27,943 nt of DNA from a virus. The stretch lies in the IMG/VR virus record IMGVR_UViG_3300032242_003034, positions 1-27,943 of that record; one strand, given 5' to 3'. Under the pieces are notes generated by a model, which was given only the letters and a program-made list of their open reading frames with translations, was not told the DNA's origin and did not search any database. Made by a program: the position numbers and the translations under genes. Each line of letters begins with the position of its first letter. Position 1 is the stretch's first letter. Of the stretch, positions 2,464 to 18,481 are shown piece after piece.

Positions 2464-2489
2464 AAAAGAGGATTTAGTCCTCTTTTTTT
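2462..2489. terminator. bidirectional rho-independent terminator
   Basis: AAAAAAGAGGA, a five-base loop and TCCTCTTTTTTT lie between convergent genes ending at 2463 (+) and 2488 (-). A-run and T-run flanks make it functional both ways. Confidence 0.88.
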
Positions 2490-3456
2490 ATGTTCTTGAT
2501 TGATACCACATTTGTTTTGGTTCTTCTTTAGGTTCTTCCAGTTGTTTAGGTTCTTCTTCCTTTTTTGGTAATTCTTTTGTAACACTTGCAATATTATGAC
2601 GAAACCATTTACTTGGATTTTTAAGATCTGAACGTCCAATTGTTTTTGTATCATCATATAAGTAATTTATTCTTATACCATATTTTAAAGCATGAATACA
2701 GTTTTTAAAACCTTGAGAATCTCCTAATAAAGAAAAGACTTCCCATATTTTTTCTTGAATTTCATCATCTATTAGACTAGGTAGTAACTTCTTAAACTTA
2801 AATGCACTATTTCTATCCGAGAATATACCGTAGTGATAATATTGAGTATTATTATTATGACCATTCCATACTGATCTTGGATTGACTTGTGGTATTGTTA
2901 AATCAATTACTAAATCATGACAATCATCATAAAGTTCTTGTAATGTATATTTTTTTGGTGGATCTTCCTCTTCCCATTCTTCAGGATTATTCCATTCCTC
3001 TAACCCACTATCCCAGTTAGACATATGCACTTTAAATGAAAACACTGGCTGTTCCCATCCAGCTATGTATCTTCCAAGATAATTATCTTTGGTTTCTTCT
3101 ATTGGATCAAAATAAAATTGTATTGTAAAGTATAATTCTCTTTCACCATCTCTCCAAAGATCGAGCATTTCTTCTACTGATATATCTTCATATAGAGTAT
3201 TCATATTATTTAAAGCTTCTGGTGTGACTTTATGATTTAGAATAAATTTTGCTTTAGGTTTTGTGAATTTAACCTTTTGATAATTATCGTCGTAGTTTCT
3301 GACAAGTTCTATATTATAAATTCCCCATTCTTTTTCTGCACCATAATCTTTTAACTTCATACCTCTTTCTTTTTTATGAGGTATGTACATAAGACTTTGT
3401 CCGGCCTGTCTGTATATTTTTGGTGTTAGTTCCTCAAAAGTTTTAATCCATTTCAT
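2488..3456 (-). CDS. unknown protein with capsid-targeting-like N terminus
   Basis: A 322-residue protein that begins MKWIKTFEEL, one of several products in this window starting with M-[KR]-x-[IL]-K-x-F-E. The middle is acidic and Trp-rich (residues about 150-175, WNNPEEWEEEDPP). The C terminus is a low-complexity Glu/Lys/Pro repeat (KEEEPKQLEEPKEEPKQ) ending in MWYQSRT. No catalytic motif is visible. The ATG is preceded by TAATATATA four bases upstream, the proposed late promoter. The tag and the likely late promoter fit a packaged or virion protein. That role is inference. Confidence 0.8.
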   Translation of the reverse strand: MKWIKTFEELTPKIYRQAGQSLMYIPHKKERGMKLKDYGAEKEWGIYNIELVRNYDDNYQKVKFTKPKAKFILNHKVTPEALNNMNTLYEDISVEEMLDLWRDGERELYFTIQFYFDPIEETKDNYLGRYIAGWEQPVFSFKVHMSNWDSGLEEWNNPEEWEEEDPPKKYTLQELYDDCHDLVIDLTIPQVNPRSVWNGHNNNTQYYHYGIFSDRNSAFKFKKLLPSLIDDEIQEKIWEVFSLLGDSQGFKNCIHALKYGIRINYLYDDTKTIGRSDLKNPSKWFRHNIASVTKELPKKEEEPKQLEEPKEEPKQMWYQSRT

Positions 3457-3460
3457 AATC

Positions 3461-3469
3461 TATATATTA
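3461..3469 (-). promoter_or_regulatory. candidate late promoter box (ATATATA-N4-ATG)
   Basis: On the minus strand TAATATATA is followed by GATT and then the ATG at 3456. The same box and spacing recur before five other genes here. Confidence 0.5.
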
Positions 3470-3522
3470 TTTTTTAAACTCATAATTATATTCTTCATAT
3501 AACAAAAAAAGATTTTTAATAA

Positions 3523-4353
3523 ATGATTAAAGCAGATAAGTATTACAAAGAAAATCTAAAAAGAATTTTAGAAGAAAATAATAAAGATAGAGATGCTAGA
3601 CCTAAATATAAAGACGGTGTAGAAGCTAATAGTTTCTTTATAACGCAAGTATTTGAAGAGTATGATTTATCTAAAGGTGAGTTCCCAGTTACAACATTAA
3701 GAAACACCGCCATTAAAACTGGTATCAATGAAATACTTTGGATATATCAAGATCAAGATTCTAACTTAACAACTGCTCATAATAGAGGTATAATGTGGTG
3801 GGATGAGTGGAATATTGGTAATGGTACAATTGGACAAAGATATGGTGCAACCGTGAGAAGATGGGATTTATTAAATAATGTCTTGAAAAGTTTAAAGGAT
3901 GAACCTTTTTCAAGAAGACATATAATAAATATGTTACAAGAGTCTGATTTAAAACAAACAAATGGATTATATCCTTGTGCATACGAAACAATGTTTTCAG
4001 TAAGAGAAGTAAAAGGTGATATGTTTTTAGATATGACTTTAAATCAAAGAAGTAACGACTATATAATGGCAGGATATATAAATAAAATTCAATATGTTGC
4101 ACTCCAAATGATGATAGCATCTCATTTAGGATATAAAGTTGGTAAATTCTGTCATTATGTTCAGAATTTACATATTTATGATAGGCATATTGATGCAGCT
4201 AAAGAGCTTTTAGAAAGAGAACCTTTAGAACAACAACCAACATTAGAATTAAAATCAGGTTTAGACTTTTATAGTATAACACTTGAAGACTTCAAAATAT
4301 CAAATATAAAAGGTATTCAGAAGATAAAATCAGAATTAGAAATTGCAATATGA
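3523..4353 (+). CDS. thyA: thymidylate synthase (folate-dependent)
   Basis: Methylates dUMP to dTMP with methylene-tetrahydrofolate for phage DNA synthesis in the cytoplasm. The 276 residues match the family length. Visible landmarks are the N-terminal RPKYKDG (26-32), ILWIYQDQ (71-78), WWDEWN (92-97), catalytic C152 in YPCAYETMF, the phosphate-binding QRSND (175-179), N187 (the Asn that selects uracil over cytosine), and HIYDRH (217-222). The usual PCH is PCA, which is normal for the subfamily found in some Firmicutes, so it is not a defect. N187 argues against a dCMP hydroxymethylase. The stop overlaps the next small gene as ATGA, indicating coupling. Confidence 0.95.
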   Translation: MIKADKYYKENLKRILEENNKDRDARPKYKDGVEANSFFITQVFEEYDLSKGEFPVTTLRNTAIKTGINEILWIYQDQDSNLTTAHNRGIMWWDEWNIGNGTIGQRYGATVRRWDLLNNVLKSLKDEPFSRRHIINMLQESDLKQTNGLYPCAYETMFSVREVKGDMFLDMTLNQRSNDYIMAGYINKIQYVALQMMIASHLGYKVGKFCHYVQNLHIYDRHIDAAKELLEREPLEQQPTLELKSGLDFYSITLEDFKISNIKGIQKIKSELEIAI

Positions 4354-4499
4354 GACAACTAACGTTAGAAGAAAGACAAGAACTATTTTGTAAAAAATAT
4401 AGTAAAAGTAAATTATATGGTGAAGATTTAGACCACAATGACTTGGATAAACACGATATTCCAAGAGAAGTTGAAACTAATTCAAAAAAAGACATATAA
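4350..4499 (+). CDS. small unknown charged protein (49 aa)
   Basis: Starts at the ATG overlapping the thymidylate synthase stop (ATGA) and ends at TAA. The product begins MRQLTLEERQ and is rich in Lys, Glu and Asp, with EDLDHNDLDKHDIP in the middle and no membrane segment. The overlap and matching codon use support translation by coupling. No family is recognised. Confidence 0.6.
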   Translation: MRQLTLEERQELFCKKYSKSKLYGEDLDHNDLDKHDIPREVETNSKKDI

Positions 4500-4520
4500 T
4501 AAAAAAATAGTTTATTAAAA

Positions 4521-5030
4521 ATGAGTAATGTAACAAGTTTAGACTTTTCACCACAATACATAGAAGATCTAGTTGAACAGGTTAAGTCCTTAGATACAAC
4601 AGAATTATCTGATGAATTAACTAAAGAAGAACAAGAAATACAACAGAAAGTTGAAGAACAAAAAGTTTATTTTTGGATTAGACTTTATTTAAAAGAAGAA
4701 GATCCAAATTTAGAGATTGGTGATGATATTACCATTAATTGGACACCATCTGATGAAAAGTTACCAACTAAATTTATTTGTTATGGTAAGACTGGATTAC
4801 AGAAAGATTATGATGAAGAAATTGTAAACTATAATTCAGAAGATGATAAGAAAGTTCTTTGTTTAATGGTAGATGAAGGTATGGTTAACTATAATGAGGA
4901 TATCCCATTTGTTAGAACTTTATTTAAAGTTGGTCGTCATTATGAGTATCAATTAGTTAAAAGATCTGAATTACTTTTTATCAATGATAGAAATGGTATG
5001 ATTTTAGATTACTTTGATTGTGATTTTTAA
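4521..5030 (+). CDS. unknown acidic protein
   Basis: A 169-residue acidic soluble protein. Residues about 12-48 are a Glu-rich helix (LVEQVKSLDTTELSDEL and following) that could form a coiled coil. The rest alternates predicted strands (YFWIRLYL, TKFICYG, YEYQLVKR) and ends in DYFDCDF. It lies in a plus-strand run with thyA and the next gene, spaced 21 and 3 nt. It has no motif that assigns a function. It may be a phage regulatory or inhibitor protein, but that is only a guess from size and charge. Confidence 0.8.
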   Translation: MSNVTSLDFSPQYIEDLVEQVKSLDTTELSDELTKEEQEIQQKVEEQKVYFWIRLYLKEEDPNLEIGDDITINWTPSDEKLPTKFICYGKTGLQKDYDEEIVNYNSEDDKKVLCLMVDEGMVNYNEDIPFVRTLFKVGRHYEYQLVKRSELLFINDRNGMILDYFDCDF

Positions 5031-5033
5031 TTT

Positions 5034-5543
5034 ATGGACACTGACTCAATAGAATATTTATTATTATCTTACTTTAATGAAGTAGTTTGGGTGGATGAGA
5101 ATCCTGCCCAGTTTACTATTTTTGAAACGTTTAAGGAAAACGGAATAGTCAAGGTTTCTACAAAACAAGAAACTTTTCACTTACAAGATTTGTTGGTAAC
5201 CTCATTCGAGGATACTAACAAATTTTTATTTGAACAAATGTTGGATTGTAATTCAATAGATATTAATTTTTATCCAAAGAATATAATTACTAAAATATTC
5301 AATTTAACTTCAATTAAGAGACTTAAAAAAGAATTAGATGGTCTTACATCAAATAACTGGATAATCACTTCTAATAAGATATATGATACTTATATGAAAG
5401 ATTTAGGATATAATGTTTACTTGTCGGATGAATTTGAAAACAAGATTATAATTGGAGATAAATCTTGTAAACTAATACTCAATAGAAATTTGAAAGAGTT
5501 CTATTTAGATAAGTCGAAGATTAGAGTAATAAACTTAAAATAA
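5034..5543 (+). CDS. unknown protein
   Basis: A 169-residue soluble protein starting three bases after the preceding stop, so the two are very likely co-translated. The C-terminal half holds YMKDLGYNVYLSDEF, which resembles by eye the DLGYDVYISEE stretch in the zinc-binding protein at 25791-26198, then strand-rich KIIIGDKSCKLIL. The shared stretch might be a small common module. No catalytic residues are obvious. A strong terminator follows the stop. Confidence 0.8.
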   Translation: MDTDSIEYLLLSYFNEVVWVDENPAQFTIFETFKENGIVKVSTKQETFHLQDLLVTSFEDTNKFLFEQMLDCNSIDINFYPKNIITKIFNLTSIKRLKKELDGLTSNNWIITSNKIYDTYMKDLGYNVYLSDEFENKIIIGDKSCKLILNRNLKEFYLDKSKIRVINLK

Positions 5544-5570
5544 AAAGTCGAGAATTATCTCGACTTTTTT
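5542..5570. terminator. bidirectional rho-independent terminator
   Basis: AAAAAGTCGAGA, loop ATTA, then TCTCGACTTTTTT, between convergent genes ending at 5543 (+) and 5569 (-). Confidence 0.9.
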
Positions 5571-5898
5571 ATTCTTCTAAATAAGTAATTTTTATGTTTA
5601 GTGATTTTGCTAGTTCAACTTCTGCTAATAGTCCAGTTGATTTGTCCCAACCTTCAATTTTATAAACAAACATTTCATCTGACTTGTATAAAAATGATTC
5701 ACAGAAATTTTTCCAAAATTGCCAGTCTCCTGGCATTTCTTTATATTGTAGTAAGGTATGTCCGTATAGAATAGGTGACATAACTATATTACCTTGTGAA
5801 ACAAGTTCTGCGACTTTATTACAAGTTTTATTATATCTTTCATTAACAACATCTGGGTTGCTATCTGAATACGGTGATGCAAAATAAATTATTTTCAT
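5569..5898 (-). CDS. DUF1937 / deoxyribosyltransferase-like protein
   Basis: A 109-residue single-domain protein. It opens IIYFASPYSD and continues ERYNKTCNKVAELVSQGNIVMSPI, then SDEMFVYKIEGWDKSTGLLAEVELAKSL. This order (SPYS, xGxxxxSPI, GWDxSxGxxxE) is that of the DUF1937 family, related to nucleoside 2-deoxyribosyltransferases. In that superfamily the final Glu (here in LAEVE) is the nucleophile. A role in nucleotide metabolism fits, but the substrate is unknown. Its start overlaps the 5895-6416 gene by 4 nt. Confidence 0.8.
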   Translation of the reverse strand: MKIIYFASPYSDSNPDVVNERYNKTCNKVAELVSQGNIVMSPILYGHTLLQYKEMPGDWQFWKNFCESFLYKSDEMFVYKIEGWDKSTGLLAEVELAKSLNIKITYLEE

Positions 5899-6416
5899 AT
5901 TCCTAATTGTTTTAGTTTAAGATCTCTTTTAACAGAATCATCAACTATAAGTTGAACTTGATGTTTATCAACCCATTTATCTTTCATAAATTGAATAATA
6001 CCTGATTTTTTTGAAGCATCTCTTCCAATTGGATCCATCGATGTAAAATCAACTGCTTTAACTTTTATTCTAGTTTCGGCTACTTCTAATACTTCTAACT
6101 CATAAGTTACTTTAAAAGATTCTGGTTTCATCTTATTACCATCTTTATCAGTATCGGTCCAACTAAGTCCGTAATCTGGATAAATAACTTTGTGTCCAGG
6201 TTCAATGGCAATTAAATCTTTTTTAAGTGTATCATCTAACTCACGTTGTACTTTATCTTTTTCTTTTTTAATCTTATCTTTTTCTTTAGATAATTTATCT
6301 TTCTCAGTTCTTAATTCTTCACATTTAGAGTAAAGAGTAATAATCCCTATTAGGGACCCTAAAAGACATAATGATAATATAAATACTGCAATCTGCAACA
6401 TTAAAATTCCGTTCAT
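5895..6416 (-). CDS. membrane-anchored coiled-coil protein
   Basis: A 173-residue protein with one N-terminal membrane span (residues about 6-29, LQIAVFILSLCLLGSLIGII). A highly charged coiled coil follows (residues 33-65, repeated KEKDK), then a soluble beta-rich domain with EPGHKVIYPDYGLSW. The N-terminal anchor without a cleavage site suggests an inner-membrane protein with its domain on one side. Spanin, anti-superinfection and membrane-stress roles are all possible, and none is shown by the sequence. The gene is 11 nt from the small gene upstream. Confidence 0.75.
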   Translation of the reverse strand: MNGILMLQIAVFILSLCLLGSLIGIITLYSKCEELRTEKDKLSKEKDKIKKEKDKVQRELDDTLKKDLIAIEPGHKVIYPDYGLSWTDTDKDGNKMKPESFKVTYELEVLEVAETRIKVKAVDFTSMDPIGRDASKKSGIIQFMKDKWVDKHQVQLIVDDSVKRDLKLKQLGI

Positions 6417-6427
6417 TTTATTATTTA

Positions 6428-6694
6428 TTAAAGTTCGTAATACATTTCACCATAAATTGGAGATCTTCTGATTATCTCCTTAATTAGTTCAAATCCAATG
6501 TCTTGTAGTAAATATTGGAATGTTTGTCCATTTTCGTGTTTAGTCACTATTTCTCCTGATGCTAAATTTTTCATATCTACTTTAGTAAAGTAAACATCTG
6601 TTTTAGTATATCCAGTACCGTGTGATATTACACCACTTTTACATAAGTGAGTGAATGAAACTTCATTTAATGAGGTTCTAATTTCTTTTGCCAT
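6428..6694 (-). CDS. small unknown protein (88 aa)
   Basis: An 88-residue soluble protein, MAKEIRTSLNEVSFTHLCKSG and onward, with a Gly/Thr-rich turn (GTGYTKTDVYFT) and a C-terminal helix LIKEIIRRSP ending in YYEL. It heads a minus-strand operon with the membrane protein and the DUF1937 gene. A TATATTTG box lies about 56 nt upstream of its ATG. No family is recognised. Confidence 0.75.
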   Translation of the reverse strand: MAKEIRTSLNEVSFTHLCKSGVISHGTGYTKTDVYFTKVDMKNLASGEIVTKHENGQTFQYLLQDIGFELIKEIIRRSPIYGEMYYEL

Positions 6695-6749
6695 ATTAAA
6701 AATCTTTTTTAACTATATAGTTTTTTTTCTATTTTGTTTATTAATCATA

Positions 6750-6757
6750 CAAATATA
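6750..6757 (-). promoter_or_regulatory. TAnnTTTG promoter box (Bacteroidota -7 type)
   Basis: TATATTTG on the minus strand lies upstream of the 6694 start. No clear TTTG is found at the -33 distance, so the call rests on the -7 box and its intergenic position. Confidence 0.3.
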
Positions 6758-6784
6758 CAAAAAAATTATATTTTTAACATATTA

Positions 6785-6797
6785 TTTTTAATATATA
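6785..6797 (+). promoter_or_regulatory. candidate late promoter box TTTTTAATATATA
   Basis: The full 13-base box lies 27 nt before the ATG at 6825 and is identical to the boxes at 15676 and 20897. Confidence 0.45.
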
Positions 6798-6824
6798 AGT
6801 CACAATAAATTATAATTATACTAT

Positions 6825-8528
6825 ATGAAATGGATTAAAAATAGAAATCTTTTTTTAGAAGCAAGAATACGTGACGTTATTTTGCCTAGACAAGCAAAAG
6901 CAGTAACAAGTAAATGGGGTGAAAAATATCTTGATTATGAAGAGATTACTCCAACTGATAAGATTATACAAGGAACCTGGAAATTATCTGAAGAAGATAA
7001 AAATGAAGTATTAGGTGTTTTCTGTCAAACAGATATGACTGCTTTATTTCGATTATTTTCAAGTTTACCAGAACAATTCGGAAATGTTTTAAATCAATCA
7101 ATCAATGTTGAACTTTTTAGAGAGAACAAAGATACTTATTCAAGAATATTTGAAAGTTTTGATATTAGAAAACCTAAGTTAGATCAGATATTGGCTATGT
7201 TTAGTTCGGTTTTTAGAAAACTATCTATTCCTGACACTATGGCAACTTCAGTTATTTCTAAAGATGCTAATAATAGACCTATCAGAGATGAACAAGGTAA
7301 TATGATTAGAATTGAGAAGAAAGCAGGAGATTTAATTTTCAGTAATAACTTAATTAATATAAACACATTTATTGCTGACTATAATGATTTAGTTGATAAA
7401 TGTACTGAAGCAAATGTTGAAGGTTGGTCAGAAACAGACAAAATGGCATCATCAACATTATTTTCTGATAATAGAAATTTATCGAATTTTATAAACTTTG
7501 CTTCTACTAATGAGAACTCACAATATAAATTAGACTTTGAAATTTTCAATAAAGATATTTTCTTAAAGATTTCACATAATCCACAGGATATTTTAAATAT
7601 GTCAATTTCTAAGTTTTATTCTTCTTGTCAACACTTATATAATGGAGGTTATAGCAGACAAGTTTTATCTAACGTATTCGACCCAAATAGTATACCAGCA
7701 TTTTTAGTTTTTGAAACTCCTATATTCTGGGATGATGAAAAAATTTCTGAACATTTACCTTTATCGAGAATGATTATCAGAAATCTTGAATCTTTTGATC
7801 CTTCTGCTCCTACGAAATTATATTTTGATAGAGCTTATCCAGATAGAATGCAGAGCAAATTTGAGGAAATTGTTACTAAATATACTGGTAACGTAAGTAC
7901 TGGTCAAAGAGGTGAGAGATATTTATATACACCGGATATTGACTTTAATGATAATTTAGATACTCCTTATCAAGATAAACTATCATTACAAACAGGAAGA
8001 ATGATTGGTAAAAATGTTAAAACTTTATATTTAAGTCAAATAGGAAACTGGTCAAATGTTAAAGTAGATCCAAATGCAAGAATTAAAGAGTTGATAATTG
8101 AAACAACTGAGATTCCAGAATCATTATTAACAATCAATCTTACTTTAGATTGGATTAAATTTAAGTTTATTGAAATTCATACTTTAAAAGATTTTGATAG
8201 AATCAAAACAACAAATATTGCTTTTGATAAATGTAGATTATCTAATGGTGTTCTACAAGATATAAATGCTTCTAATCCAAATATTACAAAACTACAAATT
8301 ATTAGTTGTGATAATGTTGGTTCATTCGACTTCTCTGAGTTTAAAGCATTAGAAGAACTTCAAGTAATATATACCTTAGATTCTGTAGAGGATTTAAAAA
8401 CAATTGTACCTGAGAACTTGAAAAAATTAATAATCTCTGGTGATTTAGCAACAAAAGAATCTAAGTCAATCTTAGGTGCTTTAAGATCTAAAGGAGTTAA
8501 AATAGAAATTGTAGGACCAGTAATATGA
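6825..8528 (+). CDS. large unknown protein with LRR-like C terminus
   Basis: A 567-residue soluble protein. It begins MKWIKNRNLFLEARIRD, a variant of the N-terminal tag seen in neighbours. The middle (about 275-350) has SKFYSSCQHLYNGGY, SNVFDPNSIPAFLVF and LSRMIIRNLE, ending in a KLYFDRAYPDRM strand. The last ~150 residues carry regularly spaced Leu/Ile/Asn patterns (IKELIIETTEIP, ITKLQIISCDNV, LEELQVIYTLDS, LKKLIISGD), typical of irregular leucine-rich repeats. That suggests a binding surface. Its TGA stop overlaps the next ATG (ATGA), so the two large genes are an operon. It is probably a virion or injected protein, from the tag and the promoter only. Confidence 0.82.
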   Translation: MKWIKNRNLFLEARIRDVILPRQAKAVTSKWGEKYLDYEEITPTDKIIQGTWKLSEEDKNEVLGVFCQTDMTALFRLFSSLPEQFGNVLNQSINVELFRENKDTYSRIFESFDIRKPKLDQILAMFSSVFRKLSIPDTMATSVISKDANNRPIRDEQGNMIRIEKKAGDLIFSNNLININTFIADYNDLVDKCTEANVEGWSETDKMASSTLFSDNRNLSNFINFASTNENSQYKLDFEIFNKDIFLKISHNPQDILNMSISKFYSSCQHLYNGGYSRQVLSNVFDPNSIPAFLVFETPIFWDDEKISEHLPLSRMIIRNLESFDPSAPTKLYFDRAYPDRMQSKFEEIVTKYTGNVSTGQRGERYLYTPDIDFNDNLDTPYQDKLSLQTGRMIGKNVKTLYLSQIGNWSNVKVDPNARIKELIIETTEIPESLLTINLTLDWIKFKFIEIHTLKDFDRIKTTNIAFDKCRLSNGVLQDINASNPNITKLQIISCDNVGSFDFSEFKALEELQVIYTLDSVEDLKTIVPENLKKLIISGDLATKESKSILGALRSKGVKIEIVGPVI

Positions 8529-10333
8529 GAAATTTAAGATACATAAAATTATTTGAAGCATTTGATGCAAGAACATTAAATGCAACTTTAAATCACATAA
8601 AAGCTAAGGCTGATAAAACCCATTTTTTAAATGCTTTAAAAAAAATATGTGGTAGATTTGATATACCTGAGTCTAAATTAGGTGATGATTTATTTACTTA
8701 TTTACCATTTAATAGAGCTTTAAGATTCAATAATGTTATTGCTGATGATCAACCTTGTGATGCTGTTGGAGAGTTTATAGCAGGAGAAAGATGTGATAAC
8801 GGTAAAGTAAGAAGACCGTGGGGTAGAGGATTTAGAGTTGTTGATTGTGGTACTTGTAAAGGTACTGGAATTAAACCTAAAAAATCTAGTTTATCAATGA
8901 TTAAATTCTGGTTTGATTCAGAAGGTAAATTTATCACAACTACTGCAGTAGATGGTGTTTATAGAGAAACATCTGCTGCTAATACTAGTGCATTTTCATC
9001 TAATCTTACTGATTATGAAATAGTTAAAAGAATTCCAAAGTCTCGTATAAGTGAGCTTGAAACAGGTGATATTATTGCATTAGACTTAGTTAATAATACT
9101 GGTTGGACAAATGAGTTGTATCCACAAGTTGTTAGTTATGTCGCGAAGGCGGATACTTGGTCGGGAATGAAATATTTTGCGTTACAAAATACTACAACTT
9201 ATTATAATAACCATCCTAGAAATACTAATGGTTGGAATCAAATAGCAAGTAGATTTTGGCAAATGAGTCAATCTAGAGTTAATAATATTAACTTATTAAA
9301 ACCAAAAGCTAATGCAGCTGGTTTAGATCCTTATGGATATAATACTTCATTTGAATTAGATAACTTCCGTATTAAACCAGTTCAAATAAATGCTTCTGTA
9401 AAAGATGCTAATTTTGCAATTATCTTAGATTTTAATAAATTGATGAATTTTGCACCAGAGAAAAAGAAAAGTGAAATTATTTCTGATAGAACTGAAATGA
9501 AGTCAGGCGCTTTAGCTCTTATGTCTGATGAAGATATTAAGAAAACTAATATTAAAAGATACTTTGATAAAATTGCTCAAGGTTTCCAATTAAGAGGTGA
9601 ATTAGACGATATTTCTAAGTTTAATAGAATGACTGCAAGATTATTAGGTAGAAATGCCACTTACTTCCTAAATTATTCATCTAGTGATACGATCAGTACT
9701 GGTTTAGGTAGTATAGCAACTCAAATTTTTAAAGTTATTAAAAAGATTAAATCTGCAGAAAGAGAAGACGCTAAACTAGTAGAACAAGGTTCTGAACCTA
9801 CTGCGATGAATGCTTTGAAAAACAATTATGAATTCAAAAATGATGTTGAATATATCAATACTAACTATAAGGACTTATTAGATTGGTCTAATAAAACGAA
9901 TGAACATACTAATAAACTTCTTAAAAAATTTAGAAAAAAAATTGAAGAGACTTCTGCAGAAGGACAGAAAGAAAAAGACCTAAAAGTTTTAGATAATTTA
10001 GATAGATTATCTTTAGAAATAGGTCGTTATATATCCTCTATTTCAGTTGATACATTGTCTGATATTGAATTTTTACAACAAGAGATTAATTCAATAAGAC
10101 AAATGTTTAGATCAGAAAGAACTGGTTTGGGTAGTTTAAATAATTTCTTTGATAGAATGAGACCAGGTAGTTATTATAACAGTCCGGATTATTTATATTC
10201 TACATTTACTGATAAAAGAACTTACTTTGGAAATGTAAATAATGGTATCACAGTTATGATAAACGTTATTAGAAGAAAACAAGGACAATTAGCGGAAGCA
10301 GAAACTAATGAAGCATTTAAAAATATACGATAA
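8525..10333 (+). CDS. large unknown protein with Cys motif and CTS-like tag
   Basis: A 602-residue protein beginning MRNLRYIKLFEAFD, the clearest form of the shared N-terminal tag. A Cys cluster (C78, C90, then CGTCKGTG at C108 and C111) is like a DnaJ-type or rubredoxin-like zinc site. It is followed by a beta-rich region containing WTNELYPQVVSYVAKADTW. The C-terminal third is helical and coiled-coil-like (residues about 420-540, KNKTNEHTNKLLKKF region). No enzyme motif is visible. It is coupled to both neighbours: ATGA with the gene before, and a 26-nt overlap with the isochorismatase-like gene after. Packaging in the head is an inference from the tag. Confidence 0.82.
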   Translation: MRNLRYIKLFEAFDARTLNATLNHIKAKADKTHFLNALKKICGRFDIPESKLGDDLFTYLPFNRALRFNNVIADDQPCDAVGEFIAGERCDNGKVRRPWGRGFRVVDCGTCKGTGIKPKKSSLSMIKFWFDSEGKFITTTAVDGVYRETSAANTSAFSSNLTDYEIVKRIPKSRISELETGDIIALDLVNNTGWTNELYPQVVSYVAKADTWSGMKYFALQNTTTYYNNHPRNTNGWNQIASRFWQMSQSRVNNINLLKPKANAAGLDPYGYNTSFELDNFRIKPVQINASVKDANFAIILDFNKLMNFAPEKKKSEIISDRTEMKSGALALMSDEDIKKTNIKRYFDKIAQGFQLRGELDDISKFNRMTARLLGRNATYFLNYSSSDTISTGLGSIATQIFKVIKKIKSAEREDAKLVEQGSEPTAMNALKNNYEFKNDVEYINTNYKDLLDWSNKTNEHTNKLLKKFRKKIEETSAEGQKEKDLKVLDNLDRLSLEIGRYISSISVDTLSDIEFLQQEINSIRQMFRSERTGLGSLNNFFDRMRPGSYYNSPDYLYSTFTDKRTYFGNVNNGITVMINVIRRKQGQLAEAETNEAFKNIR

Positions 10334-10925
10334 TTTTCAAAATCAACAAACATTGATAATCGTTGATGTACAAAAGAGTTTTCGTAAGTTTTTTACGGAA
10401 ATGTATTTACATGAATTAAAGAACTATTGTAAGAAGTTTGAATCTGTTTATCAAATTTGGGACAACCACGTCGACGGAAAACACGTAGATAAAGATTATT
10501 TATATGATGAAAATCCAGACATTCCGGTACATAAAGATTTATATCGTTTTCCTAATCAAAAAGATTTGATTGAAAAGAGATATAACTATGATGTCGATGT
10601 GGATTTCTATAAAAAGATTCTATCTAAAGAAGTTTATACTGATTTAAAGCAAAAAGAAACTAATAAACAATTAAAAAGAGGTGATACTTTTAACACTAAA
10701 GAAGGCACATTTATAGTTTATATTGGAAATAATCATCAATGGTATCACTTACCAAAAAAATTACAAGAACTTTTCACTAAATTAAAGGGACAAGAAGTTG
10801 TAATGGTTGGTGGTTCTGATTCAGAATGTTTTTTAGATGTTGAAACTGCTGCTAAATCATTTGGTGTTAAAATAAAAAGAGATTTCAAATATATCTACTC
10901 GGCAAATCATTGTCCGATTAAATAG
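10308..10925 (+). CDS. isochorismatase-like (nicotinamidase-type) hydrolase
   Basis: A 205-residue cysteine hydrolase of the isochorismatase superfamily, whose members cleave amides such as nicotinamide. The Asp-Lys-Cys triad fits D20 in TLIIVDVQKSF, K90 in LIEKRYNYDVDVDF and C174 in GGSDSECFLDVETAA. The metal/aspartate-rich loop is DNHVDGKHV. Nicotinamidases feed NAD salvage, which could matter against NAD-depleting defences, but the substrate cannot be read from the sequence. The start lies inside the upstream gene, and the N terminus MKHLKIYDNF is a weak version of the shared tag. Its 3' end overlaps the convergent amidoligase-like gene by 8 nt with no terminator. Confidence 0.85.
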   Translation: MKHLKIYDNFQNQQTLIIVDVQKSFRKFFTEMYLHELKNYCKKFESVYQIWDNHVDGKHVDKDYLYDENPDIPVHKDLYRFPNQKDLIEKRYNYDVDVDFYKKILSKEVYTDLKQKETNKQLKRGDTFNTKEGTFIVYIGNNHQWYHLPKKLQELFTKLKGQEVVMVGGSDSECFLDVETAAKSFGVKIKRDFKYIYSANHCPIK

Positions 10926-11976
10926 TTGATATAAACTTATATAATTTTTTCAAATACTCTTTTCTTTTAAATGATTTATTCGTCATTAGATAAGCAATAT
11001 AACAAAAGTAATAAACTTTATCAATTAGTGTTTGTTCTATTATTTCTCCACCTGGATATCTAAATTCAACATAGTTATAATCTCCAATTCTTGTAATATT
11101 AAATCCAAAGTTTTTATAACCTTGTTTTTTCATAATAGATAGAATATAATCACCGAAATAATCTTCTAATTTTTTTAAATCTTGAAACTGTGAGTGTTTC
11201 ATTACTTTTTGTTTATTACTTTCTATTTCAGATTTTAAATGTGGTAGTATAGACTTAGTATAGAAAGATTTTTCTCTCCACTCCATATTTTTAAATGTAA
11301 ATGATTCTTCACCTACATCTGAAATCATTAAAACTCCTTTTAGTATATTCCATTCTACTTTGCGGTCAAATCCTATATTAATGTGAATACCAGTTCTTTT
11401 ATTCATTTGCCAGTAATCTTGTTTGTTAAATTCAGAGTAAAAATCCTTTATTAGTTCAATTGTCTCATCAATTCCATTTAAGTAAGTCTTCATTGAAAAT
11501 TCAATACCTCTATTTAATGTATTGTCTAATTCATATTTGAGTTTATTATCCCATTTATTAAAAAATAATGGTAGGTTTTCTTTTAATTTATCTGTTAAGT
11601 ATTCGATGTTATCTGATATAACATAAGTCATATAATCTGATTGAATAACTTGTATTAGATTATTCTCAAATCCCTCATCATATTCATCAAGATACTCATC
11701 TAATATTTCAATATTGTCTTCATCATCTCCAAAGTCTAATGAACTTAAAATTTCATCAACAAGTGCAAACATTTTTTGTTTATTACCTTTACACTCATCA
11801 TTTATATATCTTGTAGTATTTTCTTTTGCAATTTGAATAAATTTTGCTGGAGATATAGATTCATCAGGATTTGAAGTATCTTCTGTTTCTAATTCAAATT
11901 CTAATGCTATTGTAAAACTATCGGATATAGTTTTAATAACTTCTTTATCTTTATTATTAAACTCTAATATTAACAT
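10918..11976 (-). CDS. amidoligase-like (COOH-NH2 ligase) protein
   Basis: A 352-residue protein with three landmarks of the glutamine-synthetase-fold amidoligase family: an N-terminal ALEFELE (24-30), TGIHINIGF (195-203) and VEFRYPGG (303-310). The family forms amide or isopeptide bonds using ATP, and the Glu/His/Arg residues in these motifs bind metal and ATP. A long acidic insert (residues about 82-104, DFGDDEDNIEILDEYLDEYDE) sits between the first two motifs. The gene is 9 nt downstream of gp25 and co-oriented with it. Its target is unknown; it could modify a peptide, polyamine or protein. Confidence 0.72.
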   Translation of the reverse strand: MLILEFNNKDKEVIKTISDSFTIALEFELETEDTSNPDESISPAKFIQIAKENTTRYINDECKGNKQKMFALVDEILSSLDFGDDEDNIEILDEYLDEYDEGFENNLIQVIQSDYMTYVISDNIEYLTDKLKENLPLFFNKWDNKLKYELDNTLNRGIEFSMKTYLNGIDETIELIKDFYSEFNKQDYWQMNKRTGIHINIGFDRKVEWNILKGVLMISDVGEESFTFKNMEWREKSFYTKSILPHLKSEIESNKQKVMKHSQFQDLKKLEDYFGDYILSIMKKQGYKNFGFNITRIGDYNYVEFRYPGGEIIEQTLIDKVYYFCYIAYLMTNKSFKRKEYLKKLYKFISTI

Positions 11977-11985
11977 AATAATTTA

Positions 11986-12369
11986 TTAATTTACCGTTGC
12001 AAAAATTTCGTAGTCATTAATACTAAAACTAACTACCATATATTCTTGATGTCTTTCAGGATCATCAAAAAATTCTACTGATAAATCATACCCTATACTA
12101 TCAATTTCTGGTATATAATCTGCAATTTGTGCTCTTATATCACCTTCAACAGATTCTGCTGATAATTTTGTTTCGTGTAGTAATAAAGTTAAATCTGCAC
12201 CAAAGTTAGGTTCTCCCAGAACTTCACCTTTATTAGTAAAAATAATCATTTCATATTTTTGAACGATAACTTTTACTACATCATCCTCAATAAGTTCTGT
12301 ATTTATAAACATTGGATGTCCTGGGTAACAGATATAAAAGTCTATAAAATTAAAATTATAATTTGCCAT
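11986..12369 (-). CDS. 25: baseplate wedge protein, gp25-like
   Basis: A 127-residue protein of the GPW/gp25 family (T4 gp25 is 132 aa), a baseplate wedge component that joins the wedge to the sheath start. The family core is visible: IIFTNKGEVLGEPNFGADL (about 41-59) followed by a helix and IRAQIADYIPEIDSIGYDL. The start has the proposed late promoter immediately upstream, as expected for a tail gene. It is followed after 9 nt by the amidoligase-like gene on the same strand. Confidence 0.88.
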   Translation of the reverse strand: MANYNFNFIDFYICYPGHPMFINTELIEDDVVKVIVQKYEMIIFTNKGEVLGEPNFGADLTLLLHETKLSAESVEGDIRAQIADYIPEIDSIGYDLSVEFFDDPERHQEYMVVSFSINDYEIFATVN

Positions 12370-12373
12370 AAAT

Positions 12374-12384
12374 TATATATAAAA
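12374..12384 (-). promoter_or_regulatory. candidate late promoter box (ATATATA-N4-ATG)
   Basis: TTTTATATATA on the minus strand, then ATTT, then the gp25 ATG. Confidence 0.5.
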
Positions 12385-12396
12385 TTTTAATATATA
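12385..12396 (+). promoter_or_regulatory. candidate late promoter box TTTTAATATATA
   Basis: TTTTAATATATA on the plus strand lies back to back with the gp25 box, 51 nt before the ATG at 12448. A second AATATATAA lies nearer the gene, so the active site is uncertain. Confidence 0.35.
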
Positions 12397-12447
12397 CTTA
12401 GTGATATATTTGATAAATAATATATAATAAAAAAATAACTAAAAATA

Positions 12448-13269
12448 ATGAGATTTTTAAAAAGTTTCAAAATTTTTGAGAATAAGAAATTTTGTACTAA
12501 GTGTGGTGCTGAATTAGATTTAAAATCTAGATTTTGTACTAAGTGTGGTGTAAAACAAAGTATGACGAACAGACCAAAGTCTGATGATGAGAAATCTGTA
12601 CTTGTCAAGTTAAATGATACTAAAATAGATTTAAAAGAAAAAATTAGTCTTATAATCTCAACTTATGAAGGGGATCTTATCCAACATACGGATCTAGATA
12701 AAAAAGCAATTGATATTATAGATGAATATCAAAAGAAATATGGATTCGATGAATCTTATAAGAAAGCAATTAAGTTACAAAAAAAATCTATGTTGATAGG
12801 AACAATAGAACTTTATAAAAGTAAATCTCAAGATCCTGAGTATAGAAAATCATTAGACTCTATCATACATCAATTTCATGACAAAGATGTGGATGATTAT
12901 GATGATAGTTCAATAATGATTAAAAGTCTATTACTTGATCAGGCACGTTTTTCTTCATCTAAAGAAAAAGGAAAACTTTGGAAAGATCTATATATGAAGT
13001 TAGCAAATAGTTATCAGAAAGATTCAAAGGGTAATAATGGACAAAAATTATTTGGTCAAATGTTGATGTTAGATATTATGGTAAGTAGAGCATCAAAATA
13101 TCCAGACCATAAAGTAGAGTTTGATAAAATATTTCAGGAGTATTTAAAGGATGAAGATGGTTCAGAACTTCTAAAAAAGACATATGCTAAAGAATCTGAG
13201 ATAAAAAAACAAAAAAGTGGTGTTCCTAACCATAGATTTGATTCTTCTGGAAAAGAAATTAAAAGATAA
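12448..13269 (+). CDS. zinc-ribbon protein with CTS-like tag
   Basis: A 273-residue protein with two parts. The N terminus MRFLKSFKIFE matches the shared tag and ends in IFE, a plausible prohead-protease site. Immediately after are two CxxC knuckles (C16/C19 and C30/C33, FCTKCG twice), a zinc ribbon. The rest is a helical, lysine- and aspartate-rich body (KSKSQDPEYRK, KDVDDYDDSS) without enzyme motifs. A double-CxxC ribbon is common in nucleic-acid- or protein-binding modules. The tag suggests packaging with the DNA; that is inference. The coding DNA of the two knuckles includes an exact 20-base repeat. Confidence 0.82.
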   Translation: MRFLKSFKIFENKKFCTKCGAELDLKSRFCTKCGVKQSMTNRPKSDDEKSVLVKLNDTKIDLKEKISLIISTYEGDLIQHTDLDKKAIDIIDEYQKKYGFDESYKKAIKLQKKSMLIGTIELYKSKSQDPEYRKSLDSIIHQFHDKDVDDYDDSSIMIKSLLLDQARFSSSKEKGKLWKDLYMKLANSYQKDSKGNNGQKLFGQMLMLDIMVSRASKYPDHKVEFDKIFQEYLKDEDGSELLKKTYAKESEIKKQKSGVPNHRFDSSGKEIKR

Positions 13270-13274
13270 AAGAT

Positions 13275-13303
13275 TAAAAACCCCAGTTAGACTGGGTTTT
13301 TTA
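13275..13303. terminator. rho-independent terminator
   Basis: A-run, ACCCCAG, loop TTAGA, CTGGGTTTTTT. It has a GC stem (CCCAG/CTGGG) with one unpaired C, and sits between convergent genes. Confidence 0.75.
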
Positions 13304-14258
13304 ATATATCTCTAAATTTTCCTATAATTGTAATCCCTAATATAAGAGGATCTGTTGCACCTTCTAATTTAGATGAATAGTCTGCAATTACATAAGCAGT
13401 TTCAAATAATTTATTGACACTTTCTTTTTTCTCTGTAATACACCAATCAATAAAAGGTTTTCCTAATAACTTAATCATTACATCAATTTTCTCTGCACCA
13501 AAGTTTGACATTAGAAAATGATAAGTTTTTTCAAAATCTAATTCTTCATATAAAGTATTGTAAAGTTCTAACTTTACTTTGTTAGAAACATTACCTGTTC
13601 CATCACTTATTGCACCAGTATCTAAATAACTTTGTACTTCTACTAATGTAGAACGAAAGTCTGGAAACTTTTTAGTAATAATGTTAATTAAATCCTCTTT
13701 AGGTATTTCTGCATCTTCTTTAGGAAGAACTTCGTTTATAATCTTTTTATAGATTTCTTGTTTTAAAAATCTTTCTTCTTCGATATTTTGACAATCAAAA
13801 CCAATCTGTTTAATTCTTGATTTTAATCCATCTGATATTTTATTGATGTGATTCGTAGTAATGATAAAACGAACATTTTTATTATATCTTTCTATGAATG
13901 CTTTAAATGCGTCTTGGAAGTTTGTAGAAACTCTTTCAAACTCATCTAAGAATACATACTTAATATCTGAATTTGTATCCATCATTGGTGTAAACTTACA
14001 AAAGTTATCAATTTCAGTTCTAAGAACATCAATAGATGTGTCCATAGAACAGTTTAGTTCTAAATAAGGAGTTTCTTTTGAGTATCTTCCAATTAAAATT
14101 CTAGCTAAACTTGTTTTACCGGTTCCGTAGTGACCGTGAAAGATATAGTGTTGGTTGACACCATTTTCTAATTCTTTTTTAATTCTTGGAAGTAATATAA
14201 TGTCGTCAATAGTTTTCGGACGCCATTTTTCCCATAATAATAATTTATTTACTGACAT
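13287..14258 (-). CDS. 44: DNA clamp loader AAA+ subunit, gp44-like
   Basis: A 323-residue AAA+ ATPase (T4 gp44 is 319 aa) that loads the sliding clamp for replication and, in T4, for late transcription. The family order is intact: RPKTIDDI near the start, Walker A GHYGTGKT (42-49), Walker B YVFLDEFE (101-108), sensor 1 FIITTNHINKI (131-141), and the arginine-finger region SRI (147-149), which replaces the usual SRC. The C-terminal collar domain is present. Its small partner (gp62) is not in this window. The gene is transcribed alone on the minus strand against the zinc-ribbon gene. Confidence 0.95.
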   Translation of the reverse strand: MSVNKLLLWEKWRPKTIDDIILLPRIKKELENGVNQHYIFHGHYGTGKTSLARILIGRYSKETPYLELNCSMDTSIDVLRTEIDNFCKFTPMMDTNSDIKYVFLDEFERVSTNFQDAFKAFIERYNKNVRFIITTNHINKISDGLKSRIKQIGFDCQNIEEERFLKQEIYKKIINEVLPKEDAEIPKEDLINIITKKFPDFRSTLVEVQSYLDTGAISDGTGNVSNKVKLELYNTLYEELDFEKTYHFLMSNFGAEKIDVMIKLLGKPFIDWCITEKKESVNKLFETAYVIADYSSKLEGATDPLILGITIIGKFRDILKNPV

Positions 14259-14305
14259 ATTTTATCTCATTTTCTCATGAGTATATCTAAAAATATCAAA
14301 AAAGT

Positions 14306-14866
14306 TTATACTCTTGGACGTCCAACTAAGTATTCTTCTTCTGTATGAGTACCATCTGGTAAAGTTCTAGTATAAACACCGTCACCAATCCAATTTATTT
14401 CAGAGTGAGGAAAAACTTTACTTACTGTTTGTTTATCACAGTATCTACAATCTGCTCCTATAAGTATTTCAGCAGGTCTTCCAGACACTTCTATCCAAAA
14501 TCCTTCTCTATGTAATAAAGTAATTAATTGTTTCATTAATTCTTTTCTAGCTTCTTTTGTTCCATCGTGACCCCAACCAGAAATTTTATGCCCATGAAAT
14601 TCTCTTGAAAATATTACAACGTCTGCATTAGGATCTTTATCTATATCAACTGCTGTCCAGAAAGTTAGATCCGTATCATTTACAACTGCCTCTGGTGATG
14701 AGATTCTAACGTGGCCACCAATTGGCTTATAAGCTAGATCAACAATCTCCCATATTTCTTTTTTTAGTTTACTTCTATCGTCCAAAGTAAGTTCTATCCA
14801 TTTATTCTTATCGTATAAATCGGAAAAAGTAAAGTCTTCAAATAGTTTAATGTAATTCATTTTCAC
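14306..14866 (-). CDS. unknown protein with CTS-like tag
   Basis: A 186-residue soluble protein. The N terminus MKMNYIKLFEDF is the shared tag, ending in LFE|D. The core has a strand-rich stretch GGHVRISSPEAVVNDTDLTFWTAVDIDKDP, GHKISGWGHDGT and GFWIEVSGRPAEI. The layout (GGH, W..VDIDKDP, conserved GHDG) recalls GNAT-type acyltransferases but lacks a clear acetyl-CoA P-loop, so I leave it unnamed. Two Cys pairs (CRYC) occur near the end. It overlaps the upstream tagged gene by 20 nt. Confidence 0.78.
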   Translation of the reverse strand: MKMNYIKLFEDFTFSDLYDKNKWIELTLDDRSKLKKEIWEIVDLAYKPIGGHVRISSPEAVVNDTDLTFWTAVDIDKDPNADVVIFSREFHGHKISGWGHDGTKEARKELMKQLITLLHREGFWIEVSGRPAEILIGADCRYCDKQTVSKVFPHSEINWIGDGVYTRTLPDGTHTEEEYLVGRPRV

Positions 14867-15644
14867 TCCATTTTTTTAGTAAGTCTAATGCTAATCTTCT
14901 TCTTCGACCAATTGGTATAACAATATCAGTTCTATTTATTTCTTTCCCATGTTTTTTAAAAAATTCAGTTCTGCTATTACTATCAATGCCTAATTCAGTA
15001 AAGTCATCATCAGTTAGTATAGGTTCACTTTTATATGGTTTACTTTCTTTGGTTTCTATAGATTTTATATGTTTTTTATGATGACAAGGGTATTCCGTCC
15101 AAACTTGTAATGTTTCTCCTTCTTCTTTAGACATTTTAAGTAGTTCATCATAAGTTAATGTTCCGACTACACCACCATCAATTAACATTTGTTGATATTC
15201 TGTAATTGCTTTCATAAATCCATCTTTATCTTCGTAATAATCTGGAAAAGGTTTAATTGTTTTACCTAGAAAATCTTTAGCAGTTCGGTCTACAAAAAAC
15301 CAAGTACTTCCTAATCCACCGTTTCTTAATTCTTTATTGAATCCAAAAATAGCACCTTCTTGAGGTATAATATCAAATGCAGTTCCATACCAAGCAATTG
15401 AACTATCTTCTTCTTGTCTAAAATACATATGTACTGATTTTAAAGGATGTGGGATTCCTAATTTAGAATAATTATTTATAAATTCAATATAATCTTCATC
15501 AATTGAATTTCCGGAACTTACTGTACGTAATTTAGGATCATCAATATATTCATCTTTATCAATTTTAACTCCTCTTACTAATGTTCCATTAAATACATCA
15601 GGAAATAGATTATTAAAATCTTCAAATATTTTCAAGTATTTCAT
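14847..15644 (-). CDS. unknown protein with CTS-like tag
   Basis: A 265-residue protein starting MKYLKIFEDF, nearly identical in pattern to the tag of the gene it overlaps. After the tag come TLVRGVKIDKDEY, WYGTAFDIIPQEGAIFGF and STWFFVD. The 'RG' early strand is reminiscent of ADP-ribosyltransferases, but the STS and ExE motifs cannot be found, so I do not call it one. The C terminus is very basic (RRRRLALDLLKKW). The box TTTTTATATATA lies five bases upstream of its ATG. Two overlapping tagged genes suggest a cargo operon. Confidence 0.78.
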   Translation of the reverse strand: MKYLKIFEDFNNLFPDVFNGTLVRGVKIDKDEYIDDPKLRTVSSGNSIDEDYIEFINNYSKLGIPHPLKSVHMYFRQEEDSSIAWYGTAFDIIPQEGAIFGFNKELRNGGLGSTWFFVDRTAKDFLGKTIKPFPDYYEDKDGFMKAITEYQQMLIDGGVVGTLTYDELLKMSKEEGETLQVWTEYPCHHKKHIKSIETKESKPYKSEPILTDDDFTELGIDSNSRTEFFKKHGKEINRTDIVIPIGRRRRLALDLLKKWSENELH

Positions 15645-15649
15645 AAATC

Positions 15650-15661
15650 TATATATAAAAA
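15650..15661 (-). promoter_or_regulatory. candidate late promoter box (ATATATA-N5-ATG)
   Basis: TTTTTATATATA on the minus strand, then five bases (GATTT), then the ATG at 15644. It is divergent from the box at 15676. Confidence 0.5.
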
Positions 15662-16600: not shown

Positions 16601-16610
16601 TTAATATATA
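16601..16610 (+). promoter_or_regulatory. candidate late promoter core TTAATATATA
   Basis: TTAATATATA lies 29 nt before the ATG at 16640. It is a partial match to the box, in a short intergenic gap. Confidence 0.35.
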
Positions 16611-16639: not shown

Positions 16640-17923
16640 ATGAAGAATCTTAAACTTGAATTGTTTAACTTCAAAAAGGATCTTTCTCTTGATCAAGAAG
16701 AAATATCTTCAATTGTAGAAGGACATATGAATGCTTGTAATCAACATTCAGAGAAAACTATAATTACTTCTCTTAATGAAAGATTAAAACCTTATACTTA
16801 TGATAAAAGTGTGAAGGTATTATTAGAGAGTCTTAATGATGATATGGCTGCATTTGAATTATTATATGAATTGAAAAATTTATATGGTGTTCTTAATACA
16901 AGAAATCAAGGAGAACTTTACAGACAACCTATAAATGTATTATTACAAACTATTAACCTTGAAACAGATCAAGATAGAATGTCAAAAATTCTTAATGAAT
17001 TGGCAATTTATGACTGGGTTCCAGAAATTAAGGTGTTTGTACACAATTTAACAAAATCTCCAGAAAAAAGATCTAATCTTTTAAGTGGTGGTAGTGCAGA
17101 ATCAATTTTTACAATTGTTGAACAAGTTGAAGAAGGTCACTGTGCATTAGTTAGAGATTCTTGGTTCTTATTAACTGAAAATACAATTGAAAAAACTTTA
17201 TTAGAAAATCATGTTAAAGATGCTGAAACTTTAAAAAGTTTAAGAACTTTAGAAACTGCTATGAAATATTCAACAGTAACAGAAAGTAGAATTAACTTTA
17301 GAATTTCTGAATATTTGACAATTGGTTTAGCTGTTGGTAGAAAAGGTGGTTTATTTATCAATGATGATGAGTTAAATGAAGAAACTACATTAGAAAGTTT
17401 ATTTAACTCTCCGATTATTCCAATCGTTAACAAAAACTTTTATCCTGTTTTATTAGAAACTTCTAAAAACTTAGATAAATTTGTTGAGTTAGACGTTGTA
17501 AAAAGAGTTAATAACTTAGTAAATCCTTATTTAGAAGTATTTGCATTCAATTATAAAAACAATACATTTGTTTACAGATGTGATGAAAGATATGGTAACT
17601 CGTTCTTCAAATACGAATCAGCTTTAGAATTAGTAAATGAAGTAAGAAATGAATTAAACTATGATTTAACTTATTTCTTTGAAAATAAATTAAACAAAGA
17701 AATTATTGTTAAAAGAAAACTTGAAGATAAAGAAAGAGAAATCACTCTTAAATTAGAAGATGTTGAATTTAACATTGATAAAATCAAAGGTTCATTAAAA
17801 ATGATTGGTGAGTCTCAAGTTTTAACAACTGCTCTTAAAAATTTAGAGAAAAGACAAGTAAATCTTAATGCGGAATTACAAGCAGTAAAAGAATTACAAT
17901 ACAAAGAAAGAATTAGAGGATAA
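16640..17923 (+). CDS. unknown, probably structural protein
   Basis: A 427-residue soluble protein starting MKNLKLELFNF. The N-terminal half is helical, with FELLYELKNLYGVLN. The middle contains GHCALVRDSWFLLTE and GLAVGRKGGLFINDDE, then NKNFYPVLLETSKNLD. The C-terminal ~90 residues form a long coiled coil (KRKLEDKEREITLKLEDVE through KNLEKRQVNLNAELQAVKE). The position between tail-completion gp15 and the late sigma factor suggests a virion protein. I cannot name the family. Confidence 0.82.
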   Translation: MKNLKLELFNFKKDLSLDQEEISSIVEGHMNACNQHSEKTIITSLNERLKPYTYDKSVKVLLESLNDDMAAFELLYELKNLYGVLNTRNQGELYRQPINVLLQTINLETDQDRMSKILNELAIYDWVPEIKVFVHNLTKSPEKRSNLLSGGSAESIFTIVEQVEEGHCALVRDSWFLLTENTIEKTLLENHVKDAETLKSLRTLETAMKYSTVTESRINFRISEYLTIGLAVGRKGGLFINDDELNEETTLESLFNSPIIPIVNKNFYPVLLETSKNLDKFVELDVVKRVNNLVNPYLEVFAFNYKNNTFVYRCDERYGNSFFKYESALELVNEVRNELNYDLTYFFENKLNKEIIVKRKLEDKEREITLKLEDVEFNIDKIKGSLKMIGESQVLTTALKNLEKRQVNLNAELQAVKELQYKERIRG

Positions 17924-18440: not shown

Positions 18441-18481
18441 ATAGCATTACAGATTTTAAATCTGAAAAAAATAAATGCTAT
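18441..18481 (+). promoter_or_regulatory. nested stem-loop over the sigma-factor start
   Basis: The outer 8-bp stem is ATAGCATT (18441-18448) with AATGCTAT (18474-18481). The inner hairpin is the 15-base palindrome CAGATTTTAAATCTG (18450-18464). The ATG at 18475 sits inside the outer stem. Confidence 0.45.

Follow-up and report, generated by a model that had tools for sequence, protein, structure and literature searches.

The capsid-targeting sequence (CTS) of bacteriophage T4, carried by the internal proteins IPI, IPII and IPIII and by Alt, is the closest described counterpart of the element considered here, a short N-terminal peptide (the 'tag') shared by otherwise unrelated proteins encoded in the viral DNA of IMG/VR record IMGVR_UViG_3300032242_003034. 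The window that was analysed is the entire record, 27,943 bases; it is a genome fragment from a megaphage whose relatives include LR745206 and LR756502. In T4 IPIII the leader is 10 residues long; positions 4 and 7 determine targeting, positions 8 and 10 determine processing, and a leader with Asp at position 10 still targets but is not processed (PMC9026906). CTS and tag are alike in being N-terminal leaders of about 10 residues that begin with MK, place hydrophobic or aromatic residues at 4 and 7, and, in the long form among others, end in hydrophobic-x-E↓small (the arrow marks the point of cleavage, predicted in the present case); in being one leader on diverse bodies encoded by late genes; and in the company they keep, a gp21-like protease, gp20, gp23 and gp55. 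They differ in that the consensus here is MK(Y/H)(L/I)Kx(F/Y)E, with a long form, YK(I/L)FE↓S, and an FNE↓S variant; the protease is fused to a repeat scaffold; the bodies are acidic; and whereas T4 tags a handful of proteins, there are ~80–140 per genome here, putatively processed and packaged.

We consider it quite likely that what these N-termini share is a T4-type propeptide for capsid targeting, which would send the proteins that bear it to the prohead. The initial annotation had already likened it to the T4 signal, and several lines of indirect evidence support that comparison well: the residues at positions 4 and 7, the specificity of the hydrophobic-x-E-small site, late-type promoters, sites of the same kind in the scaffold and in the major capsid protein (MCP), and the T4-like tags (FINE↓A, YLKE↓S) of orthologues in LR756501. 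One part of it needs changing, in that the E of the short form is probably not always a point of cleavage. To judge from the sequences, a known mechanism has been greatly expanded in this clade.

Three other systems invite comparison. Sphingomonas phage PAU, which has a T4-type MCP and protease, encodes short proteins behind a single leader, MK(T/S)(L/I)xxL(Y/F)E(A/S/N); PAU_142 and PAU_154, annotated as internal capsid protein, share MK(T/S)(L/I)xxLYE↓(A/N)xLNE. PAU differs in placing the aromatic residue at 8 rather than 7, in having a second LNE site, and in the size of the set, ~25 genes. The giant phages phiKZ and SPN3US likewise pack many head proteins, ejection proteins among them, whose propeptides are removed after Glu, but these propeptides are mostly longer than 100 residues, the protease is a different and diverged one, and the specificity, in SPN3US, is AxE (PMC5694885, PMC10052503). 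A propeptide of that type was considered for the tag and rejected: the leaders are 8–13 amino acids (aa) long, and P3 is hydrophobic (L/I/F) or T, not A. Lastly, DarB of phage P1 has an N-terminal signal that suffices for capsid loading of a reporter (PMC9024508); DarB is a single large protein, however, and the likeness noted is one of function.

A shared leader on unrelated bodies

Five uncultured phages were analysed as whole genomes, together with PAU: LR745206 (W01, 635 kb), LR756502 (W02, 642 kb), LR756504 (W03, 636 kb), LR756501 (W04, 735 kb) and LR756500 (W05, 462 kb). The portal protein of the window is 84% identical to that of W01, 79% to W02, 53% to W03, 48% to W04 and 35% to W05, and is more remote from those of Lak phages and PAU. 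W01 and W02 are described as freshwater and sub-surface megaphages, sister to Mar_Mega_1 (PMC9723777). Open reading frames (ORFs) were called by a simple script, and their start sites therefore carry some error.

The consensus has K at 2, L or I at 4, and F or Y at 7, followed by E and a small residue, and it recurs in three forms: short, L4..F7-E8-x-F10; long, L4..Y7-K-(I/L)-F10-E11↓S; and a variant, MK(Y/H)LK(K/R)(F/Y)NE↓S. Residue frequencies at N-termini peak for aromatics at 3, 7 and 10, for hydrophobics at 4, and for Glu at 8, 9 and 11. Lysine at residue 2 is found in about one quarter of ORFs in these AT-rich genomes. Codons vary synonymously, from which we conclude that the tag is conserved as protein.

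The five N-termini that first drew attention are present at ORFs 2488, 8525, 12448, 14306 and 14847, the start of 14306 having been moved to 14860. A broad regular expression matches 6 of the window's 33 ORFs, where 0.4–0.7 would be expected by chance. A stricter one matches 59 of 947 ORF starts in W01, 78 of 976 in W02 and 29 of 927 in W03; at internal methionines it matches 9 of 3167, 6 of 3339 and 3 of 2765, respectively, so that in W01 and W02 the tag is 20–40 times commoner at start codons. Once the FNE variant is added, the tagged ORFs number 82 in W01, 104 in W02 and 29 in W03; the suggestion that related phages be searched for the tag has thus turned up more than was first noticed. A rule taken instead from the targeting residues of T4 IPIII, K2+[ILVM]4+[FYW]7 (PMC9026906), picks out 99 ORFs in W01, 142 in W02, 51 in W03 and 40 in W05, against ~5 expected from protein interiors. 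Standing outside these totals is a large paralogous family, possibly PHROG 4191 peptidases (W02 321131, W01 90898, W04 434121), that occurs in W01–W04 and many of whose members have T4-like leaders (KYFEFINE↓N, KYLDFIKE↓S).

That the bodies behind the tag are otherwise unrelated is borne out at scale: when their first 16 residues are removed, 171 tagged proteins give 149 clusters, of which 103 have a single member. Among the 106 tagged proteins of at least 130 aa, a handful match Pfam or PHROGs. Reciprocal best hits between W01 and W02 tend to share the tag: it is present on both members of 16 pairs, on one member of 19, and on neither of 393. Leaders vary on a given enzyme. One methyltransferase has the leaders KKIFE↓N (W01), EFVFE↓N (W02) and QFINE↓A (W04), and the W04 orthologue of the window hydrolase bears MKVIKFSDYLKE↓S; one version of the leader can thus take the place of another on a given enzyme. 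The leaders of W04 look T4-like: MIKKYIQFINE↓A, which is that of the methyltransferase, MKNFTRFINE↓N and MSTLSHYKNFVNE↓A.

Predicted cleavage sites, the prohead protease and late-type promoters

The pattern [ILVMF]xE[SNAG], with P3 at residues 6–10, is enriched 4.1- and 4.3-fold in W01 and W02, 3.3-fold in W04 and 2.6-fold in PAU. Replacing the E of the pattern by D, K or Q gives no enrichment in the megaphages (0.75–1.25-fold over P3 5–20). Cleavage after (L/I)-F-E, as the initial annotation proposed, suits the long form, in which P1 (residue 11) is E in 60 cases and D in 1, and P1' is mostly S. It suits the short form much less well: P3 is T in 30 of 85, a misfit to (L/I)xE, and 10 of 94 have D in place of E, both of which count against the T4-type reading. 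Short-form tags might therefore dock without being cut at that Glu, and cleavage at the short-form FE is doubtful. A possible second cleavage site follows downstream of short-form tags in 24.5%, compared with 15% in untagged proteins, which is suggestive only. Leaders that end in (L/I)xE↓small are also those of the family of the 6825 protein, described below, and of W04; the FNE variant has F at P3. The protease should cut MKYLKKYKIFESN, MKHLKKFNESV and MKWIKNRNLFLEAR, and E-to-D forms of these are predicted to stay uncut.

The protease in question is encoded at 26385..27943 on the plus strand, running off the end of the window. It is gp21-like (PHROG 207, E=1e-29; the Pfam S77 match is weak and below cut-off) and is fused to a scaffold-like region in which a 14-aa unit (YSEYIAENLDKNIA) is repeated in tandem 10–11 times, with a potential site Y(S)EY(I/L)AE↓N in every copy. 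The same fusion is found in W01 (198546–200669), W02 (225272–227371) and W03 (185342–187636). The YSEY(I/L)AE↓N repeats resemble the T4 IPIII leader, and their sites, IAE↓N and LAE↓N, are of the same type as the tag site. Near its N-terminus the protease has sites of the LIVE↓N and IKE↓S types that are conserved in W04; T4 gp21 carries LIE-9 (PMC9026906). The MCP prodomain, near its end, has INE↓N, IHE↓N or MNE↓N.

Upstream of genes in W01–W04 and the window, two classes of motif can be discerned, an early class, TAnnTTTG, which we take to resemble a promoter element of Bacteroidota, and a late class, T[AT]ATATATA, which precedes head genes. The late-type motif lies ~13 or 28–38 bases before the start; window examples are at 6789–6797, 12418–12426 and 16602–16610. 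The canonical T4 late promoter, TATAAATA, is not enriched before the tagged genes of W01. Among first genes of operons, tagged ones divide 71 late-type to 2 early-type and untagged ones 299 to 221 (p=1e-13), and independent IMG/VR loci give 71 to 0 and 222 to 74. With motifs so short and AT-rich, the classification is noisy. When the tag is ignored and genes are sorted by class alone, the N-terminal site is found in 24.6% of late- versus 3.0% of early-class genes in W01, 21.9 versus 3.3% in W02, 12.9 versus 4.2% in W03, and 14.0 versus 3.5% in W04. The late class of W01 includes sheath, portal, MCP, baseplate and endolysin families, and its early class DNA ligase, NAMPT, ClpP, a tRNA synthetase and a protein that bears a signal for type IX secretion. 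Among the families listed for the early class there is no structural one, except for head-maturation-protease profiles, which we read as matches to ClpP. It appears, from these motifs, that tagged genes are expressed late, along with the head genes. The window encodes several T4-type functions: a gp55-like late sigma factor of T4-type late transcription (18475..18849, plus strand), a gp20-like portal protein (21714..23471, plus strand), a gp44 clamp loader and a gp4-like head-closure protein, besides the gp21-like protease at its right end.

Tagged proteins of the window

A Pfam and PHROGs search of the window's tagged ORFs gives a name to the zinc ribbon alone. The leftmost tagged protein (2488..3456, minus strand; 322 aa) has the short-form tag MKWIKTFEEL (3427..3456) and a late-type motif, TAATATATA, at 3461–3469 on the same strand; it is a weak relative of W02_142361, of an FNEEL-type tagged family. 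The next (6825..8528, plus strand; 567 aa, with a late-type motif at 6789–6797) is one of three whose tags had been noted as weaker forms. Its tag, MKWIKNRNLFLE↓A, within MKWIKNRNLFLEA (6825..6863), is instead of the canonical T4-like form, by the look of its residues: F10, E12 and A13 do not vary among nine aligned sequences, and the orthologues have FISE↓A, FINE↓A or FLNE↓A. The C-terminal half of this protein is leucine-rich-repeat (LRR)-like, and Foldseek finds an LRR match to SDS22 for its AF2 model, with a low TM-score. This LRR-containing candidate for head cargo is single-copy in W01 and W02; W03 has at least four related genes (158014, 323657, 325348 and 327032) with varied T4-like leaders.

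On the plus strand there follow a 602-aa protein (8525..10333) that has a Cys motif in its N-terminal part, the long-form tag MRNLRYIKLFE↓A (8525..8560), and tagged orthologues in W01 and W02; and a 205-aa protein (10308..10925) that is isochorismatase/nicotinamidase-like by its motif and a weak fold match (Foldseek against nicotinamidase, E 0.028). The second of the 'weaker' tags, MKHLKIYDNF (10308..10337), short-form with D at 8, belongs to this protein and proves to be genuine. Of the 34 orthologue N-termini listed from IMG/VR, nearly all keep it, down to ~53% identity (it is weak in L189 and missing from L190), and it joins the first strand of the domain, LIIVDVQ, directly. The AlphaFold model has a pLDDT of 84.5 overall and below 50 for residues 1–11, as expected of an added leader. 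The adjacent ORF 10918 is untagged, but its W02 orthologue, 208753, has a tag-like start (MKHIIKFSLFEE), and the tag has thus been gained or lost on one gene.

The zinc-ribbon protein (12448..13269, plus strand; 273 aa) has the long-form tag MRFLKSFKIFE↓N (12448..12483), with late-type motifs at 12388–12396 and 12418–12426. It occupies a slot, between the clamp-loader gene and 11986, that is filled by a zinc-ribbon protein in the window and in L012, and by other tagged proteins in the related loci L009–L011. Two tagged proteins on the minus strand complete the set. The first (14306..14860; 184 aa) has the short-form tag MNYIKLFEDF (14831..14860); its start is most likely the ATG at 14860, because the GTG two codons upstream is unused in L009–L012 (MNYIKLFEDF). 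Its W04 orthologue starts MKNKYISSYKIFE↓A, and its W01 orthologue MKHLKAFEEY. The second (14847..15644; 265 aa) has the short-form tag MKYLKIFEDF (15615..15644) and a late-type motif at 15650–15658; six IMG/VR orthologues retain MKYLKIFEDFNN.

The third of the 'weaker' tags did not survive inspection. The 427-aa protein at 16640..17923 (plus strand), which begins MKNLKLELFNF, was rejected as tagged: it lacks an E site, and its conservation extends over the full length (80% in W01/W02; MKNFKLELFNF in W04). Overlooked at first was a possible, uncertain FNE-type variant, MEHIYGFNEEF, on a 139-aa protein (17950..18369, plus strand) for which no homologue was detected.

Two observations on neighbouring genes may be added. 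The thymidylate synthase at 3523–4353 is 74% identical to the version in W03 and ~22% to those in W01 and W02, the closer relatives, and gene displacement is likely. A family of small Cys-motif proteins (MKSCSKCKLDKE...; window 21029–21727, W01 197841–198470, W02 615593) is scattered among late genes at positions that differ between relatives; these are probably homing endonucleases.

Proposed packaging, its alternatives and what it would mean

Targeting to the prohead need not mean injection. The tagged proteins might be parts of the core or inner shell, such as vertex components or scaffold partners, that are kept in the head or degraded instead of being injected as effectors. Most of the tagged genes of PAU lie close to those for the protease, scaffold and MCP, the capsids of PAU have inner densities beneath the vertices (PMC5646251), and the large LRR-like 6825 protein is conserved across relatives, all of which an assembly role would accommodate. 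Most tagged proteins change fast, however—26 of 82 in W01 have a reciprocal best partner in W02, versus 402 of 831 untagged ones—and they swap within syntenic slots, unlike essential assembly parts. We regard this explanation as rather unlikely.

That the tag addresses some other site in the cell, a membrane or a replication compartment, or serves late genes as a signal for translation or stability with no link to the head, strikes us as improbable. The tag is late-specific, and its amphipathic pattern of lysines and aromatics could bind other partners, but such an address leaves unexplained the specificity for E followed by a small residue (the D, K and Q versions being flat), the matching sites in scaffold and MCP, and the internal-capsid annotation in PAU. 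A signal in the RNA is disfavoured by the synonymous variation of the codons. Duplication is a very improbable source of the likeness. It would make the tag a relic of one paralogous family whose bodies have diverged past recognition while the N-terminus was retained, and part of the tagged set is indeed paralogous, since a body motif, D(I/V)(L/F)xE(L/I)xDDG, recurs in 12 of 82 tagged proteins of W01 and 27 of 104 of W02 (2–3% of untagged proteins have it). The 149 body clusters have differing folds, however (LRR, isochorismatase-like, zinc ribbon, methyltransferase and M15 peptidase), and orthologous enzymes bear different tag versions in different genomes; the N-terminus is clearly under selection. 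Chance likeness of short AT-rich N-termini (MK..., aromatic, acidic) has a negligible claim: lysine-rich N-termini are common in these genomes, but the internal-methionine, shuffle and interior controls, and replication in independent contigs, refute it.

A capsid-targeting propeptide thus remains the reading we prefer, and several points besides the short-form misfits weigh against it. The effect is smaller in W03 and W05, and the late/early contrast is not significant in W05; the promoter classes are noisy, as noted, and the late class of W01 also holds helicases and UvsX. The tagged bodies are slightly acidic on average, whereas T4 internal proteins are basic, and a few resemble enzymes that normally are free in the cell: a methyltransferase, a tRNA nucleotidyltransferase/HD protein, and an M15 peptidase. 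About 100 species of cargo would be far above the T4 number. Cleavage of the PAU MCP after LME64 predicts a product of 521 aa, one residue off the loss of prodomain, 585 to 520 aa, that N-terminal sequencing revealed (PMC5646251). A search of the literature found no virion proteome for any megaphage and no cultured relative; the accessible part of the paper on relatives of W01 and W02 reports no virion data (PMC9723777), and the open papers that contain 'capsid targeting sequence' include none on megaphages, to go by their titles.

If the tag is a T4-kind propeptide, events might run as follows. Late in infection, ~80–140 different proteins per genome (W01, W02) would be made with a leader of 8–13 residues, whose hydrophobic and aromatic face (positions 4, 7 and often 10) would dock them on the prohead core, the protease-scaffold fusion with its repeated YSEYIAEN motif. 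Docked cargo would be enclosed as the shell forms. The gp21-like protease would then cut after the Glu of hydrophobic-x-E↓(S/N/A/G) wherever that occurs (KIFE↓S, FNE↓S, FINE↓A), releasing the cargo along with digestion of the scaffold and trimming of the MCP. Where P3 is T or P1 is D, short-form tags may serve for targeting and yet stay uncut there. Finally, and this is the least supported step, the cargo would probably be ejected into the host with the DNA. The strongest version of this scheme, which we put forward tentatively, is that each virion of the clade contains ~80–140 tagged proteins, around a tenth of the proteome, mostly uncharacterised and rapidly exchanged, that are loaded by docking of one short leader on the protease-scaffold with its repeats, and injected along with the genome as an arsenal, made in advance, against host defences.

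The internal proteins that T-even phages carry behind the CTS are described as a diverse anti-restriction set (PMC3012670). If that pattern extends to the present phages, their tagged proteins would amount to a list of candidates for injected anti-defence functions, and the tag itself would be a new loading signal for protein delivery. How a CTS spreads over unrelated bodies becomes testable, through cargo swapped in one slot and varied leaders on orthologous enzymes. In uncultured phages of 0.6–0.7 Mb, whose gene content is mostly obscure, a rule of sequence yields ~100 candidates per genome for cargo proteins of the virion, and about a tenth of the proteins of these phages may be packed in the particle, perhaps to be delivered to the host with the DNA.

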